Shown here: piece after piece, positions 429 to 40,190 of the stretch
How the letters are laid out: the number at the start of each line of letters is the position of its first letter
Position numbering within the stretch: position 1 is the first letter of the stretch
DNA from: Candidatus Omnitrophota bacterium
GTDB lineage: Bacteria; Omnitrophota; Gorgyraeia; 2-01-FULL-45-10
DNA: 46,965 nucleotides
Assembly: GCA_026387175.1 (NCBI GenBank)
Contig: JAPLME010000001.1
Coordinates: 1 to 46,965 of the forward strand
Direction of reading: 5' to 3'
Translations under genes and position numbers: made by a program
Notes under the pieces: model-generated
Seen by the model: the letters and a program-made list of their open reading frames with translations, nothing else
The model's database searches: none
What the model was told of the DNA's origin: nothing

Positions 429-1199
429 TTAAATTTCTTCGACAGCTTCTTTTTTGACCCAGCTGATTTTCCCGTCCGGTCTCCTTACCTGCCGCCACCC
501 GTTTCTGGTATTTAATATGAGAACTTCCCTGCCTTCATGCAGAGTATAATACGTCGTAGACTTTTCTATGGGCTCGTATTTACACTCCACTTCCTTCTGC
601 ACCACTATCCCGTGTTTTAGTATTCTCTCATCAAAGTACCTGGCCGCGACTGCCGATAGATTTAGAATAAATAGAGCGACGACTAAAACTAAAACCGCGC
701 GGAACCGTCTCGCGAAGAACGGCTTGGCGATAAATAAACCGATGAGCAAAAGCAAAAGGAGGTATAGGATAGTGGCGGAAAAAATAATCGCCCGTAAACT
801 GTAGAGCCCGAATATAGCGTCGAGCGCATTTAAGATAAAATTTCCCTGCGTTTCGGTATTCGCGCTCTCTACCAATGAACGCGCATAGGACAGATTTGCC
901 TTGAGATCACTGTCGTGAGGGATCAGCCTCTTAGCTCTTTCGTAACAAAGTATGGCATGTCCGAGACTCCCCATCTTAAGGAAACCATTGCCGATATTGT
1001 AGTAGAGGTTACCGCTCTCCAACCCCGACTCCAGTATGGCTACATATCCTTCCACCGCTTTCAGATAATCCCGTGACTCGTAGTTATGATTCGCCGTATA
1101 AAAGAGCTGATAGGGATCTGCTTTCTTCTCTTCGGCATACGATGCGGCTGTTATTAAAACTGCGAGCACCGACGCTAATATAATGCCAGGTCTTTTCAT
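429..1199 (-). CDS. batE: BatE-like TPR and SH3-like membrane protein of the Bat operon
   Basis: This 256-residue protein is the last gene of the Bat (aerotolerance) operon. It has an N-terminal signal peptide (about 1-22) and TPR-like helices at about 30-110, where 'NLYYNIGNGFLKMG' is typical. Two membrane helices follow at about 133-177, then an SH3-like domain over the last 55 residues ending in 'WRQVRRPDGKISWVKK'. The start overlaps the batD stop as ATGA, which implies translational coupling. In the family, TPR proteins are thought to scaffold the VWA partners BatA and BatB at the membrane. The precise role is not known, and the batE name rests on operon position and domain order. Confidence 0.8.
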   Translation of the reverse strand: MKRPGIILASVLAVLITAASYAEEKKADPYQLFYTANHNYESRDYLKAVEGYVAILESGLESGNLYYNIGNGFLKMGSLGHAILCYERAKRLIPHDSDLKANLSYARSLVESANTETQGNFILNALDAIFGLYSLRAIIFSATILYLLLLLLIGLFIAKPFFARRFRAVLVLVVALFILNLSAVAARYFDERILKHGIVVQKEVECKYEPIEKSTTYYTLHEGREVLILNTRNGWRQVRRPDGKISWVKKEAVEEI

Positions 1200-3040
1200 A
1201 ATTTTTTGCGCTCAAAGTACTTCAGGATATCCTCGAGCTCCTTTTTATCATCCCTCATCTTCATGTCGCCTACATGCAGGAAAGCAAAACGCGCCGTATC
1301 ACAGGCCTCGAAAAGCCTCTTCACCTTACTGACTATCGCCGGGTCTATCTCTTTCGAAACAAGGCATTCGACTGCTGTATTGGCGGTAACACCCGCCGGA
1401 GGGATATGCAGCCGGTAGCCTAAATAGTTTTGAAGGGTATTGAATAAAGTCTCGTAAAAGATCTTTGGGTCCTCCGTCTTCAACTGGCGGCTCAAATCCT
1501 TAAGGCCCTTTTTCGACGATCTGAATGCCATAATACGTCCGGAGTATGCGGTATCGCTCTTAAGGCGTGTCCGCCTCCGCTGCACCACATAATACGCTAT
1601 CAAAAACATAAGCGGCGCGGATATTATAGTGAAGAAGGCGCCGGTCTTATAATAAACTTTTCCTTTTTTAAACCATATACCGGGAGACTCTTTTATGTAT
1701 ATGATATCCCTGCCAAGGTCCGCTTCTTTAGCCGGCGCGGGAGGCTGCACGCCCGGCGTAGGCCCGATCACCTGCGAAGGCGCTTCTTCCTTGCCTTTTT
1801 CGACCTGCAATGGTATGGGGCCCTGGGTTATGGTCTTAAATTCTCTGGCATTTATGTCGAAGTAAGAGAATGCGGCCCTCGGCACCTGTGTGACCGTATC
1901 CGTTTCGGGGATCAGCACCTGTGTAAAACTCTTGTGGTTATCTTCCGTCTTCACCTGAGGCTCGTATGTTTTAAATCCGGAGGTATTATCGAAATTGGGC
2001 ATAAGCACGGTGTTGAAGTTGCCGGTGCCGTTTATATCCATGCGCACGGTTATCGGATCTCCGATTTTGATCTTGGTCGGGCTTGCGGTAAAGATAAATT
2101 GATAATCGCCGACGGCACCCGTAAAGCCGGAGGGGCGGGCCTGTTCAGGGATCGGCGAAACAACTATCTGGGCGTCCTGTGATTTGAGTTCAAGAGGATA
2201 ACGCTCAAAGCGGGTGAAGAAATCGTCGAACATGGATCCGCCGTAGGGATCATTCGGGAAAAAGTCATCGGCCATAGGCCCGCGCGAAGCGGCTCTGGGA
2301 ACCATCACGCTGCATTTTATTTTGGCGGGCCCCAAACGATAGTCGCCGGGCTTTGTGCCGAAGATACTGGTCTTGAATTCGAGGACGTCAAAAAGCATCC
2401 CGGCAACGCGCTCGCGGTATTGTTTCGGTTCTTTAAATTCAACCTTAGAGAAGCCTTCCTGATCGAATGTAGGCAGCTGTATATCGCTCACATTCAGCCT
2501 GTTCACGTAGAGTTTAACCGTAACCGGTATAAGCTCATTGACGTAGGCCGCCGGTTTATCGACAAAAAGCGTAAGGTATATCCTATCCCCCATATTCATC
2601 TGTTGCAGCATATTAGCCCCTGATGCCTGCGCCATAGGCGCAACCCTTTCTTCGACGGCCTCGAGCGACACCATATTGGACGCATAGTCATCGCCCTTAT
2701 ACTTAAACGTAAACGGCCCGAGCTGAAATTTGCCGAGCTTGAGAGGCTGGACATAATACATATGCGTAATAGAACTTGAGACTTGGCCATTTATAACCGT
2801 CATCATAGTGGAGGGTCCGATATATTTTATGTCAAGGCCATCGATGTTGCCGAGGTCCGGTGCCGGCATCGACTGAGTTCCGTAGAAAGCCAGCCCGAGC
2901 TGCGCCTTTTCGCCTATGGCTACACGGTTCCTGTCTAGGCTGACTTCAAACTTCTTCTCCGCAGCATGCGCTCGAGGCGCAATAATGCTTACGATGAGAT
3001 AAGCCAATGTTAATATTTTTATATATCGTTTCATATTCAT
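1196..3040 (-). CDS. batD: BatD family oxygen-tolerance protein
   Basis: The 614-residue protein has a signal peptide (about 1-27), a long periplasmic region of repeated Ig-like beta domains, and one membrane helix near residues 475-495. It ends in a roughly 120-residue cytoplasmic helical tail that includes 'KRLFEACDTARFA'. Size and layout match the BatD family of the Bacteroides-type bat operon. It is separated from batC by 263 bases, the only large gap in the operon, and that gap is filled by a dispersed structured repeat (3058-3250). The stop codon overlaps the batE start. Its molecular function is unknown in the family; envelope-stress protection is the usual inference. Confidence 0.88.
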   Translation of the reverse strand: MNMKRYIKILTLAYLIVSIIAPRAHAAEKKFEVSLDRNRVAIGEKAQLGLAFYGTQSMPAPDLGNIDGLDIKYIGPSTMMTVINGQVSSSITHMYYVQPLKLGKFQLGPFTFKYKGDDYASNMVSLEAVEERVAPMAQASGANMLQQMNMGDRIYLTLFVDKPAAYVNELIPVTVKLYVNRLNVSDIQLPTFDQEGFSKVEFKEPKQYRERVAGMLFDVLEFKTSIFGTKPGDYRLGPAKIKCSVMVPRAASRGPMADDFFPNDPYGGSMFDDFFTRFERYPLELKSQDAQIVVSPIPEQARPSGFTGAVGDYQFIFTASPTKIKIGDPITVRMDINGTGNFNTVLMPNFDNTSGFKTYEPQVKTEDNHKSFTQVLIPETDTVTQVPRAAFSYFDINAREFKTITQGPIPLQVEKGKEEAPSQVIGPTPGVQPPAPAKEADLGRDIIYIKESPGIWFKKGKVYYKTGAFFTIISAPLMFLIAYYVVQRRRTRLKSDTAYSGRIMAFRSSKKGLKDLSRQLKTEDPKIFYETLFNTLQNYLGYRLHIPPAGVTANTAVECLVSKEIDPAIVSKVKRLFEACDTARFAFLHVGDMKMRDDKKELEDILKYFERKKL

Positions 3041-3057: not shown

Positions 3058-3250
3058 CGAAACTTCTGCGGTAAGCCTTCCGCTTGTCGCGAATTTACAT
3101 TAGGCATGTAAATTCGCTGTTGTAAAATCTTGATGGCCAATGAACCTGCCTATAGGTAAAAAGCTGTTGTGCAGTTTCATTGTCCTGGTATATCGCCTAG
3201 AAGTATCAAGATTTTACGAAAGTCGCTCCAGGCTTCCCGCAGAAGTTCCG
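3058..3250 (-). repeat. Dispersed structured repeat, copy A (between batC and batD)
   Basis: In minus-strand order the element has an outer stem arm (3250-3231), a conserved 13-base segment (3233-3221), and an inner stem arm (about 3217-3205). Next come a conserved 16-base segment (3204-3189), a loop, the matching inner arm (3134-3122), and a 46-base core (3120-3075) with a perfect 12-bp hairpin. The outer arm is completed at 3077-3058. The 46-base core is identical to 25314-25359 on the opposite strand. The two stems pair within each copy but differ in sequence between copies. Confidence 0.85.
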
Positions 3251-3303
3251 CTGCCTGAAGATCTCTCCTGGGGCATCTTCCATACGATATTTTCGCCTAC
3301 GCT

Positions 3304-4608
3304 TTACCAGTCCCTCGCCGGTTCTGACATGTTAATAGGCTTCTGGCGCATCTTGATCGTGCGACCGGTAGCCTCTTCGCCTTTATATCCCTCGAGGAGC
3401 ATCTTAGCCTCTTGTTCTGTCATCTCGCCGGGTTCAGCTTCTTTTCCGGCGCCTTGATAAGCTGCTAATCCGCCCTGTTTCTCTTCGGGCTTCTTGGCTT
3501 CTTCGGAACCCTGTTCCCCTTGAGCTTCCTTGCCCTTCTCTTCTTCGCCCGCGCCGGCAGCTTGCTTTTCCTGCTCCTCACCTTGCTTCTCTTCGGGTTT
3601 TTTCTCTTCCTGCCCAGGCGCTGCGCCTTGTTCTTTACCTTCTTCGCCCTTCTTCCCTTCTTCCTTTTCTTTCTTTTGATCAGCCGCAGACTTATCCTGT
3701 CCTTCGGCACTTTCAGGCTTCTTCTCTTTCTGTTCCGCACCCTCGCCACCGCCCTGCTCGCCTTCGGACTTATTCTGCTGCTCTTTATTCTCCTGAGACT
3801 GGCCTCCACCACCTTGTTGGCCGGCTTTTTCTTTATCTTTATCCTGCTGACTTTGCTGGTCCTTATTCTGCTGCTGGTCCTGATTTTGCTGATTCTGGTC
3901 CTTCTTCTTGTCTTCTTCTTTTTGCTGTTTATCTTGCTGATCCTGTTGTTGCTGATCTTGATTCTGCTGTTGCTGGTCCTGATTCTGCTCTTTATTCTGA
4001 TCTTTCTGCTGCTGGTTTTGATTCTGCTGATCCTTGTCTTTTTGATCCTTCTTATCCTGCTTATTCTGTTCCTGCTGTTTCTTCTTCTCTTCTTCCTGCT
4101 TTATCTGAAACAGGGGCTTAAGCTCTTCCAGTTTCTTCGATACAAATTCGTAATTGAATTTAGCGTCTTTATCGCCCGGATTCAGATCTATAGCGCGCTT
4201 ATAATACTGAAGGGCCGTAGCGTAAACTTCGGCGGTCTTCTTAATGTCCTTCTTCTCTTTATCCGCTTTGTCTTTTAACGCGCCTGTCTTATACGTCGAG
4301 TTCCCTATGTTATAGTCCGCGGCACGGATAAGTCCGGCTCGCCCTGAAGCTATCGACTTGTTGAAAACCTCGATAGCTTTAGGATACGCGCCGTTTTTAT
4401 ATAATGCCGCGCCACGGTTGAGATCGGGGATGCCGCTGGACGACTTTTCCAGAGCGGCTTTTTCGTATAGCTTCGCGGCGCCGGCGTAATCACCGTTATT
4501 ATATAATATGTTTCCTTTTTTAACATCATCTTTTTCCGATGCGAAAGATGCCGTCGGAAAGGCCGTCCAAAATACCAGTAAAAACAGCAATAATTTTAAT
4601 CTTCTCAT
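3304..4608 (-). CDS. batC: BatC-like TPR protein with a long Q/K/E-rich region
   Basis: The 434-residue protein has a signal peptide (1-24). Tetratricopeptide helices follow at about 28-165 ('YKNGAYPKAIEVFNKSI' and 'ALQYYKRAIDLNPGDKDAK'). Residues 171-390 are extremely low in complexity and rich in Gln, Lys, Glu, Asp and Gly. A short conserved-looking C-terminus holds 'EQEAKMLLEGYKG'. BatC proteins commonly have TPRs followed by charged low-complexity sequence, but about 220 residues is long. It overlaps batB by four bases (ATGA). The low-complexity coding strand creates a long hydrophobic antisense reading frame that is not a gene. Confidence 0.88.
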   Translation of the reverse strand: MRRLKLLLFLLVFWTAFPTASFASEKDDVKKGNILYNNGDYAGAAKLYEKAALEKSSSGIPDLNRGAALYKNGAYPKAIEVFNKSIASGRAGLIRAADYNIGNSTYKTGALKDKADKEKKDIKKTAEVYATALQYYKRAIDLNPGDKDAKFNYEFVSKKLEELKPLFQIKQEEEKKKQQEQNKQDKKDQKDKDQQNQNQQQKDQNKEQNQDQQQQNQDQQQQDQQDKQQKEEDKKKDQNQQNQDQQQNKDQQSQQDKDKEKAGQQGGGGQSQENKEQQNKSEGEQGGGEGAEQKEKKPESAEGQDKSAADQKKEKEEGKKGEEGKEQGAAPGQEEKKPEEKQGEEQEKQAAGAGEEEKGKEAQGEQGSEEAKKPEEKQGGLAAYQGAGKEAEPGEMTEQEAKMLLEGYKGEEATGRTIKMRQKPINMSEPARDW

Positions 4609-5615
4609 CTTGCCGCCATCTTTCGATCGGGCAGAATCGGCTCCAGCAATAGAAGCAATACGGCAAAGGCCAGAAAATACTGGAACCTCTCCTGAGCGTG
4701 TTTTCTCATCTTTGCCTCTATGTCCCTCTTCTCAAGCTTCGATATGCTCTTATCATATAGAAGAACAAGCCCGAATTCCGCCTGTGTCGCATGGACATAA
4801 TTACCGCCGGTGGATATGGCTATCTTCTTAAGGAGGTCTTCATTGAGGACCGACTTCACCACCTGACCCGAACGATCTTCTACATAGCCCCTTTCCCCCT
4901 TCTCATTTATTACAGGGATGATATCTCCCTCCTGGCTCCCTACGCCGACGCAATATATTTTGATGCCGAGGTCGCTCGCCTCTTTCGCGGCTTTAAGAGC
5001 ATCGCCTTCCAGATCGTCCCCGTCTGTGATAATGACCAGAATCTTATATTTTTTATCCGGCCCTTTGAAGATATTCATGGATTCCCTTATGGCGCTCGTA
5101 ATAGAAGTGCCGCCGCGTGGTATCGTGCCGATACCGAGATCGTCGAGGGCAAGCAGGAACCCGTTATAATCTATCGTGAGAGGGCACTGGAGAAATGATG
5201 TCCCGGCGAAAGCGATAAGGCCTATGCGGTCGCCATTAAGTTTTTTAACCAGGTCTTTTACCGCAAATTTTGACCGTTCGAGCCTGTTCGGTTTCACATC
5301 GGTGGCAAGCATACTCTTCGAAACGTCGATGGCTATCAGCATATCTATGCCGGACCTCTTGGTCTCTTCCCAGACAAACCCCCATTGCGGCCGGGCAAGC
5401 GCTATAAGCGCGAGGACTACGGCGGCGCTTATGACTATGCATTTCAGTATCCTCATTATGGTGCTCGCTGTAGGCGCGATACTATTTACGAGGCGCTTGT
5501 CGGCAAAGCGTTCTATGAGTAAGCGCCGCCGTATCATTGCCCAGACATAGAAGACCGCTAGCGCAGCCGCTGAGGCATATATCAAGGCAACATATTGACG
5601 GTTAGCGAATTCCAT
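4605..5615 (-). CDS. batB: BatB, membrane-anchored von Willebrand A domain protein
   Basis: This 336-residue protein has N-terminal membrane helices (about 7-27 and 55-75), a VWA domain (about 90-290), and a C-terminal membrane helix. The MIDAS metal site is intact: D97-V-S99-K-S101, 'RGGTSITSA' for the threonine, and 'ITDGDDLEG' for the distal aspartate. It lies one base downstream of batA and is probably its paralogue and partner. VWA pairs of this kind are linked to MoxR ATPases across bacteria, and the substrate is unknown. Confidence 0.93.
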   Translation of the reverse strand: MEFANRQYVALIYASAAALAVFYVWAMIRRRLLIERFADKRLVNSIAPTASTIMRILKCIVISAAVVLALIALARPQWGFVWEETKRSGIDMLIAIDVSKSMLATDVKPNRLERSKFAVKDLVKKLNGDRIGLIAFAGTSFLQCPLTIDYNGFLLALDDLGIGTIPRGGTSITSAIRESMNIFKGPDKKYKILVIITDGDDLEGDALKAAKEASDLGIKIYCVGVGSQEGDIIPVINEKGERGYVEDRSGQVVKSVLNEDLLKKIAISTGGNYVHATQAEFGLVLLYDKSISKLEKRDIEAKMRKHAQERFQYFLAFAVLLLLLEPILPDRKMAAR

Positions 5616-5616
5616 C

Positions 5617-6615
5617 TTACGGGATCCTCATAAAGAATGTATTAGTAAGGAATATCTCCAGCGCTAGCATGATAAGCCCCGGGATCAGGAAGAAATAGAA
5701 CAGCTCCTCGTACTCCCTGTAACCGAAGTGCTCTATATTTGACCTTTCCAGCTTATTGATATCATCGTATATCTTACGCAGGGTTTCCGTGTCGCTGGCT
5801 AAATAGTATTTGGCGCCTGTCAGGCTGGCGATCTTCTTCAGTATTTCCTCATCCATCTCTATCGGAATATTTTTATACACCGTCCTGCCGTACATGTCCT
5901 TTAACGGATACGGCACCAGCCCCTTCGATCCGACGCATATGGCATAGACCTTTATCTTCAATGCCTTGGCAGCCTCAGCGGCAACTAAGGGTGATATAGT
6001 TCCGGCGTTATTAACACCATCTGTCAGAAGTATTATAACCTTGCTCTTGGTCTTAGAGGTCCGCAACCGGTTGACCGATGTCGCTATAGCCGAACCTATC
6101 GCGGTCGCATCCTCTATCATGCCGATGCGAACCCTGTCCAGGTTCTCATTGAGCCATGAATAGTCGCTGGTGAGCGGACAGACCGTATACGCGCGGGCGG
6201 CAAACGCAACCAGTGCGATCCTGTCGTCTTTACGTTTCCGGATAAATTCCTTAACGACGTCTTTGACAACATCAAAACGATTCACCCTGTTCGGGCCGAT
6301 CCTGAAATCTTCCGCAAGCATGCTTGTTGAAGTATCGAGGTCCAGCACTATGTCAACGCCTTCGGAAACCGTCTTGGACCCTTCGAGGACAGCCTGCGGC
6401 CTCGCGAGAGCGAATATAAAAAGTATTATGGCTCCCGCCCTGAAGAGAATCAGATATTTACTGAAACGAAGCCGAAAAGTGGGCTTGATACCTTCCAGCA
6501 GATCCTTGGAAGAAAAGACGAATGTGGAATCCTTTCGCCTCATCCTGGCGAGTAAGCCCATCAGCAGGACCAGCGGCACTAAAAGCAATACCCATGGATC
6601 CTTGAACGCGAACAT
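5617..6615 (-). CDS. batA: BatA, membrane-anchored von Willebrand A domain protein
   Basis: The 332-residue protein has two N-terminal membrane helices (about 8-24 and 54-72), a VWA domain, and a C-terminal helix near residues 305-328. Its MIDAS site is D94-T-S96-T-S98, with 'LLTDGVNNAG' as the third loop. Its N-terminal 'LLLVPLVLL' and 'ARPQ' elements are typical of the family. It starts immediately after the preceding BatD-like gene (no gap), so it is almost certainly in one transcript with moxR. The domain probably binds Mg2+ and presents or senses a partner for the MoxR chaperone. Confidence 0.93.
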   Translation of the reverse strand: MFAFKDPWVLLLVPLVLLMGLLARMRRKDSTFVFSSKDLLEGIKPTFRLRFSKYLILFRAGAIILFIFALARPQAVLEGSKTVSEGVDIVLDLDTSTSMLAEDFRIGPNRVNRFDVVKDVVKEFIRKRKDDRIALVAFAARAYTVCPLTSDYSWLNENLDRVRIGMIEDATAIGSAIATSVNRLRTSKTKSKVIILLTDGVNNAGTISPLVAAEAAKALKIKVYAICVGSKGLVPYPLKDMYGRTVYKNIPIEMDEEILKKIASLTGAKYYLASDTETLRKIYDDINKLERSNIEHFGYREYEELFYFFLIPGLIMLALEIFLTNTFFMRIP

Positions 6616-24630: not shown

Positions 24631-24689
24631 CTCCAAGTTTATTAAGCCATATTACAGGCTAAGTGCTGATGTCTCCGACATCAGCCTTT
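24631..24689 (-). repeat. Two-hairpin 59-base element, copy 1 (upstream of HU)
   Basis: It matches 40132-40190 in 52 of 59 positions, same strand. Hairpin 1 is a 9-bp stem (GCTGATGTC/GACATCAGC) with a 3-base loop. Hairpin 2 is AGCC/GGCT, followed by AATAAACT and the gene's ribosome-binding site. Two of the seven differences form a T-A to C-G swap inside stem 1. The hairpin begins exactly at the TGA stop of the upstream gene. Confidence 0.85.
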
Positions 24690-25170: not shown

Positions 25171-25219
25171 GGGCAGATTTTTACAACTATCTAATGGCGA
25201 AAATATCCTAGAAACATCT

Positions 25220-25384
25220 CAGTCCGGCGTTTACTTTGGTGGCCCGCCTGGAGCGACTGTCGTGAAAATGCGATACTTTAAGGCGATATAGGCTTTATCA
25301 TCGCATTTTCACCACAGCGAATTTACATGCCTAATGTAAATTCGCGACAAGCGGAAGGCGGCCACCAAGGTAACCGCCTGACTG
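25220..25384 (+). repeat. Dispersed structured repeat, copy B (downstream of dnaE)
   Basis: The outer arms at 25220-25248 and 25357-25384 are nearly perfect inverted repeats of about 28 bases. The inner arms at 25262-25274 and 25300-25312 are perfect 13-base inverted repeats. Segments at 25246-25258, 25275-25290 (14 of 16) and 25314-25359 (46 of 46) match copy A at 3058-3250 in the inverted orientation. The 46-base core holds a perfect 12-bp hairpin with a 5-base loop. Arms differ between copies while keeping pairing. Confidence 0.87.
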
Positions 25385-40131: not shown

Positions 40132-40190
40132 CTCCTAGTTTATTCAGCCGCATTACAGGCTAAGTGCCGATGTCTCTGACATCGGCCTTT
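40132..40190 (-). repeat. Two-hairpin 59-base element, copy 2 (upstream of rpmF, overlapping the ackA 3' end)
   Basis: It matches 24631-24689 in 52 of 59 positions. Hairpin 1 is GCCGATGTC/GACATCGGC, where copy 1 has T-A in place of C-G. In this copy hairpin 1 lies inside the last codons of ackA and encodes its C-terminal tail. Hairpin 2 (AGCC/GGCT) and AATAAACT lead into the rpmF ribosome-binding site. Confidence 0.85.

Follow-up and report, generated by a model that had tools for sequence, protein, structure and literature searches.

The window, a 46,965-nucleotide stretch of DNA from a Candidatus Omnitrophota bacterium, contains two copies of a dispersed repeat that shares a Y-shaped fold with a kissing contact between the loops of its two hairpins. 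Copies of this element are scattered through the same genome and through those of relatives, in both orientations with respect to genes, and sites occupied in one genome are empty in another. Because the sequence changes from copy to copy and the Y shape stays constant, something appears to depend on the shape. We propose, with a probability of about 0.45, that the element is a non-autonomous dispersed DNA repeat whose folded single strand is recognised by a trans-acting enzyme.

A Y-shaped fold with a kissing contact

The two copies lie on opposite strands. Copy A has its sense strand on the minus strand and interrupts the bat operon (BatA, 5617–6615; a VWA/BatB-like protein, 4605–5615; a TPR/BatC-like protein, 3304–4608; BatD, 1196–3040), separating batC from batD. 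Copy B has its sense strand on the plus strand and an overall extent of 25220–25384. Their parts are as follows.

3058–3250, minus: copy A, core element, in the batC/batD interval (covariance-model match 3059–3249, model R1, 147 bits, E 1.9e-37)
3286–3297, minus: copy A, 5′ terminal arm GGCGAAAATATC, right behind the batC stop codon; the partner 3′ arm is absent
3231–3249, minus: copy A, 5′ arm of P1, sense GGAACTTCTGCGGGAAGCC
3221–3230, minus: copy A, conserved TGGAGCGACT, the GGA of the purine internal loop and the GC step into the junction
3205–3217, minus: copy A, 5′ strand of P2
3189–3204, minus: copy A, conserved P2 loop segment ACTTCTAGGCGATATA, in which TAGGC (3195–3199) kisses the P3 loop
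3135–3186, minus: copy A, P2b, an optional extra hairpin within the P2 loop that copy B lacks
3122–3134, minus: copy A, 3′ strand of P2
3089–3117, minus: copy A, P3 hairpin, whose loop GCCTA (3101–3105) kisses the P2 loop
3078–3088, minus: copy A, conserved GACAAGCGGAA, the junction and the 3′ side of the purine internal loop
3059–3077, minus: copy A, 3′ arm of P1
25230–25375, plus: copy B, core element, directly downstream of the dnaE stop (model match 25230–25374, 157 bits, E 3.5e-40)
25196–25207, plus: copy B, GGCGAAAATATC in the 5′ flank, within the inserted stretch
25230–25248, plus: copy B, 5′ arm of P1
25249–25258, plus: copy B, conserved TGGAGCGACT
25262–25274, plus: copy B, 5′ strand of P2
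25275–25290, plus: copy B, conserved P2 loop ACTTTAAGGCGATATA, in which AGGC kisses the P3 loop
25300–25312, plus: copy B, 3′ strand of P2
25317–25345, plus: copy B, P3 hairpin, loop GCCTA (25329–25333)
25346–25356, plus: copy B, conserved GACAAGCGGAA
25357–25375, plus: copy B, 3′ arm of P1

The element is about 150–200 bases long, or about 200–260 with terminal arms. Its outer stem, P1, is variable in sequence. Beyond it, a purine internal loop sets GGA against GGA or GAA and is followed by a G-C/C-G step and a three-way junction, where GACT and GACAAGC are conserved and from which hairpins P2 and P3 emerge. P2 has about 13 pairs and a loop that holds ACnTTATGGCGnTA and, in some copies, P2b. 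P3 has 12 pairs and the loop GCCTAA, and it comes in two styles: one is Watson-Crick throughout, and in the other, GCGAGCGAGG..CCGAGCGAGC, Watson-Crick pairs give way to two tandem G.A steps in the context C-GA-G. A tandem sheared G.A step is stable on the sense strand; the opposite strand would carry T.C mismatches. Since the tandem G.A steps of P3 work on the sense strand only, we take the sense strand to be the one that folds.

A sequence-only reading of the window had described copies A and B as a repeat within the bat operon with covarying stems and conserved unpaired segments, and the larger data set agrees. The two copies share an identical 46-base run, ACAGCGAATTTACATGCCTAATGTAAATTCGCGACAAGCGGAAGGC, as well as GCCTGGAGCGACT and ACTT(CT/TA)AGGCGATATA; their long stems P1 and P2 differ in sequence and keep their pairing inside each copy. 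Across the family the same Y recurs with conserved loop and junction bases, many unpaired positions being more than 90% conserved across genera. As DNA, copies A and B fold with z-scores of −12.0 and −10.3, and 0 of 200 dinucleotide-preserving shuffles did as well. On alignments that were fitted to the model with relatedness left in, and which for that reason give counts and not probabilities, double changes are seen in 15 of the 33 pairs among eight copies from the window's genome (93.5% of cells paired, versus 28–41% with slid partners). Among 82 different copies taken from relatives they are seen in 30 of 33, where 555 cells carry them and again 93.5% of cells pair, versus 30–47% slid. P3 seems invariant when only A and B are compared, yet it covaries family-wide: 64 distinct P3 hairpins are nearly all perfectly paired, or perfect except for tandem G.A steps. 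Those steps are kept in dozens of copies, and the pairs around them covary (GC/GC to GT/AC, as in GCGAGCGAGG..CCGAGCGAGC versus GTGAGTGAGG..CCGAACGAAC). Copies seem to swap entire P3 hairpins as units, so independent compensations are fewer than the cell counts.

The loops of P2 (TGGCG) and P3 (GCCTAA) are complementary, GGC with GCC, and this contact covaries. Its score is 11.82, compared with 10.63 ± 0.14 when P2 loops are re-paired with the P3 loops of other copies, and 0 of 1000 permutations scored as high. In several genera the two loops have swapped in step, from TGGCG/TGCCT to TGCCG/TGGCT, and in distant families the contact takes the form ACGCG/CGCGT or GGCGCC/GGCGCC. It is broken in a few copies, for example L126.

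Pairing of this kind could arise with no selection on the fold. Template switching at replication homogenises the arms of inverted repeats and can invert the spacer (PMC8604942), and it can maintain hairpins with compensatory changes (PMC8794818). The element might then be an ordinary palindromic MITE whose arms are complementary solely by this route, which would fit arms that are near-perfectly Watson-Crick with few intermediates, outer arms that match within each copy too, and the flipped orientations described below. However, template switching would erase the tandem G.A steps that persist in P3, and the explanation sits poorly with a covarying contact between two different hairpins and with unpaired bases conserved across genera. 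The retained G.A steps and the kissing-loop covariation likewise weaken the broader proposal that all of the covariation is arm homogenisation. We consider the palindromic MITE quite unlikely, and we prefer selection on the folded DNA strand because homogenisation of arms should remove G.A steps and should not preserve complementarity between two separate loops.

Outside P1, many copies have terminal inverted repeats as well, GGCGAAAATATC / GATATTTTCGCC or AAATTTTTCGGC / GCCGAAAAATTT, which are absent or different in some. The sequence-only reading had set the element apart from MITEs by its lack of conserved terminal repeats. That contrast survives only in part: terminal repeats are present in many copies, but they vary between copies and are complementary within each one.

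Spread and genomic setting

That reading had suggested a covariance-model search for further copies with compensated arms, and many such copies were found. Even a plain DNA search picks up three other near-full copies in the window's genome, at 94–96% identity and on other contigs. Model R1, built from eight copies, gives 16 matches in that genome, of which 13 are full copies and two are degraded (57 and 35 bits); the last is an echo of copy B on the reverse strand. Among relatives there are 215 matches in 29 genomes. All 25 of the other same-family genomes searched have copies, 1–25 per genome, and R1 also matches the single sister-family genome in the order and 3 of 30 other genomes searched. 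In an even draw of 384 Omnitrophota genomes, 28 have the element: 18 belong to the same family, ten to six other families within the class, and none lies outside that class. Among named GTDB contigs, a scan for the pattern hit Omnitrophota alone, save two Alphaproteobacteria records; the covariance model finds nothing at those two loci, so we regard them as chance or mis-binning. The exact pattern had no match in viral contigs. Rfam gave no credible match over the element at gathering or permissive thresholds, consistent with the earlier impression of no known family, and a literature search limited to open-licence papers returned no report of such repeats in Omnitrophota. The folded repeat is well supported and, going by Rfam and the papers searched, undescribed.

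Empty sites are found in close relatives. In the same-genus genome G002, batC and batD lie three bases apart (TAA CGT ATG), and copy B is missing from the region after dnaE in both G002 and G003, the latter also of the same genus. Copy A comes immediately after the batC stop; judging from the sequence, its 3′ end appears to supply a ribosome-binding-like TAGGA ahead of batD. The 3′ end of copy B meets the dnaE stop codon. In G003 the batC–batD interval (L243), which lacks the element, is occupied at that position by another inverted repeat, GTCATTGCGA..CGCAATGAC.

Of the 123 copies that have a neighbouring gene on each side, 96 sit between genes running in one direction; 60 of these point the opposite way and 36 the same way. 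The 3′ end of the element is near a gene, at a median of 31 nt from the stop when opposite and 72 nt from the start when in the same direction, and 16 of the 60 opposite-oriented copies sit 23–27 nt from the stop codon; on the 5′ side there is about 200 nt of additional non-coding sequence. Eighteen pairs of loci from different genomes share an interval between homologous genes, 8 with the element in the same orientation and 10 with it flipped, which implies either that the same intervals are hit repeatedly or that the element inverts in place.

This placement raises the question of whether the element is a host-beneficial structure at gene 3′ ends, such as a terminator, an mRNA 3′ stabiliser or a protein-binding site, that was spread by an unrelated process. 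The short distance to stop codons and the intervals shared across genera would be expected of such a structure, whereas the position of copy A inside an operon and the copies near gene starts would not. Moreover, the terminal arm is AT-rich and has no GC-rich hairpin with a run of Ts behind it, and termination needs neither a junction nor a kissing loop. We judge this explanation very unlikely.

The 5′ flank is often another repeat, and the element sits in clusters of folded repeats. In seven genomes, a second folded repeat of about 300 nt lies just upstream on the same strand (L068, L069, L047, L063, L133, L136, L139, L022); it is conserved as AACCTAAACC..GTTATGTTCGCAC..GGAACTCG, a hairpin, then CTCAGACATCCTCGG..CATAACTTCGGTTTAGGTT, and has no Rfam match. 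Longer palindromic repeats of the window's genome, with AGATTTTTCGGC ends, a similar outer stem and a different interior (GACGCGAAATTTCCCC..), are found at L152 (G000:C6:36735-37021), L153 and L154; such AGATTTTTCGGC-ended palindromes lie directly 5′ of several copies and also beside L023, L028 and L033. In G016 (e.g. L096, L112, L100), many copies are preceded by yet another hairpin, with a stem that varies and stays paired, followed by AAGACCCCCGTC..ACCGACCC.TCGGGGGCCCC. The window itself has a 59-base repeat at 24631–24689 and 40132–40190 (88% identical), with a short hairpin TGATGTCTCCGACATCA and then Ts; a 49-base part of it recurs at about 25 places in the congener G001. Several copies of the element adjoin tRNA genes (L224, L223, L037). 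Finally, L068 and L071 of G010 have the same flanks on two contigs, and their copies differ mainly in the loops that separate P1 from the terminal arm, which points to strain variants or to an exchange among copies.

Folded DNA or structured RNA

Covarying helices and a tertiary contact on one strand fit a structured RNA and a folded single-stranded DNA alike, and the sequence-only reading had named both. Pair types help to distinguish them. The cells of P2 and P3 comprise 3,245 Watson-Crick pairs, 17 G-U and 16 A-C (G-U 0.5%), against 5.2% G-U in control tRNAs of the same loci, a small sample of 13 distinct tRNAs and 270 pairs (Fisher p 1e-8 versus P2+P3). P2 and P3 thus tolerate G-U no more than A-C, unlike what is expected of RNA, which favours DNA. 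P1 has 3.1% G-U, with 34 G-U versus 11 A-C; for these counts the arms were restricted, since unrestricted arms include unpaired loops. Upstream of the copies, no enrichment of a promoter signal was found.

A structured RNA that has spread as a repeat, be it a free small RNA or a piece of mRNA 3′ regions, is the main rival, though we think it rather unlikely. The fold, the conserved unpaired bases and the kissing loop are what one would expect of an RNA, P1 has more G-U than A-C, a neighbouring repeat resembles an RNA in its long conserved unpaired stretches, and copy A lies in sense within the bat operon and would be transcribed. Set against this are the scarcity of G-U in P2 and P3, the mixed orientation of copies to their genes, the flips at shared intervals, the lack of upstream promoter enrichment and the lack of an Rfam match. 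Of the two possibilities named by the sequence-only reading, then, the single-stranded DNA hairpin gains from the G-U counts, the mixed orientation and the missing promoter signal, and the RNA keeps an appreciable share of the probability. We lean towards selection acting on one folded strand of DNA.

Under our preferred account, the sense strand would fold, when single-stranded, into a fixed Y held by the P2–P3 kissing contact. We infer that this folded single-stranded DNA is the functional form because the inner stems tolerate Watson-Crick pairs and tandem sheared G.A, but G-U no more than A-C. An enzyme acting in trans would recognise the fold and insert the element beside gene ends, in either orientation and in many cases at a stop codon, and arm mismatches would be purged by selection on the fold, possibly aided by template switching within hairpins. 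Several points speak against a DNA element: G-U exceeds A-C in P1, conserved loops and kissing contacts are typical of RNA, and no target-site duplication or mobiliser was found. Comparison of copies A and B with their empty sites revealed no clear target-site duplication, the flanks being too diverged. A non-exhaustive scan of the window's genome for arm motifs did not reveal a parent transposon; the inspected pairs were other small repeats, with no transposase-bearing one among them. As for candidate mobilisers, Y1 transposase was found in none of G008, G009, G014, G015 and G017, while G016 (25 copies) and G010 (18 copies) each gave a single weak match. Reverse transcriptase (of a group II intron or retron) is present in only 6 of 29 genomes and absent from most copy-rich ones. 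For neither family does presence go with copy number.

Two different tyrosine-recombinase (Xer-like) genes adjoin the element, one common to G000 and G002 and the other to four genera (L033, L097; L096, L098, L117, L093). These neighbours may be coincidental or may hint at the enzyme.

Relation to known elements

Integron attC sites are single-stranded DNA that is recognised, once folded, by a tyrosine recombinase; their structure is kept as sequence drifts, one strand folds and unpaired bases matter (PMC2727003, PMC6393395). Our element likewise conserves structure over sequence, has one folding strand and key unpaired bases, and lies just downstream of genes. Unlike integron attC, its arms have no RYYYAAC/GTTRRRY (R″/R′) boxes on either strand, with the consensus read by eye; it is a three-way junction with kissing loops where attC is one hairpin, and it is dispersed, not in cassette arrays. 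REPs and REPINs are palindromes scattered between genes and believed to be processed in single-stranded form (PMC3116915, PMC8266576), REPs being palindromes of 20–40 bp (PMC3733652). The element is also dispersed and palindromic, but it is a three-way junction of 150–200 bases, and its copies are not tracked by the presence of a Y1 transposase, the family of TnpA-REP (RAYT). By analogy, then, it resembles attC and REP as a folded palindrome near gene ends, and fails their defining features where tested. Bacterial MITEs are short, non-coding and dispersed, with terminal inverted repeats (PMC10969869), as are many copies here; in contrast to MITEs, the arms of the element vary between copies, its inner fold is kept by covariation, and neither a target duplication nor a parent transposon was found.

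With the structured RNA families of Rfam, the element has in common helices, conserved unpaired bases, kissing loops and detectability by a covariance model, but it matches none of them, its P2 and P3 are nearly free of G-U, and its orientation is unrelated to transcription. The terminal palindromes of the parvovirus type, with an outer stem and two small inner palindromes, form a Y on single-stranded DNA. The likeness to an outer stem with two inner hairpins is an analogy only: the present element is internal to bacterial chromosomes and has a kissing contact, and nothing in the data speaks for shared ancestry.

What stands out is a tertiary contact backed by covariation, in an element present in every examined genome of one bacterial family. 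The near-absence of G-U beside kept tandem G.A suggests a simple sequence-based way to separate folding at the DNA level from folding at the RNA level, which could serve for other orphan structured repeats. If the element acts as DNA, the small set of folded-single-strand elements (attC, IS200/IS605, REP) would gain a much more elaborate fold, one that points to an unknown recombinase. It is tentatively conceivable, if on the doubtful side, that this is a new kind of mobile element: protein-free, recognised through a folded single-stranded DNA Y with kissing loops, and carried by an enzyme acting in trans across a single class of Omnitrophota, where it lives beside a guild of other folded repeats. 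Confirmation of both the DNA reading and the recombinase would make it one.
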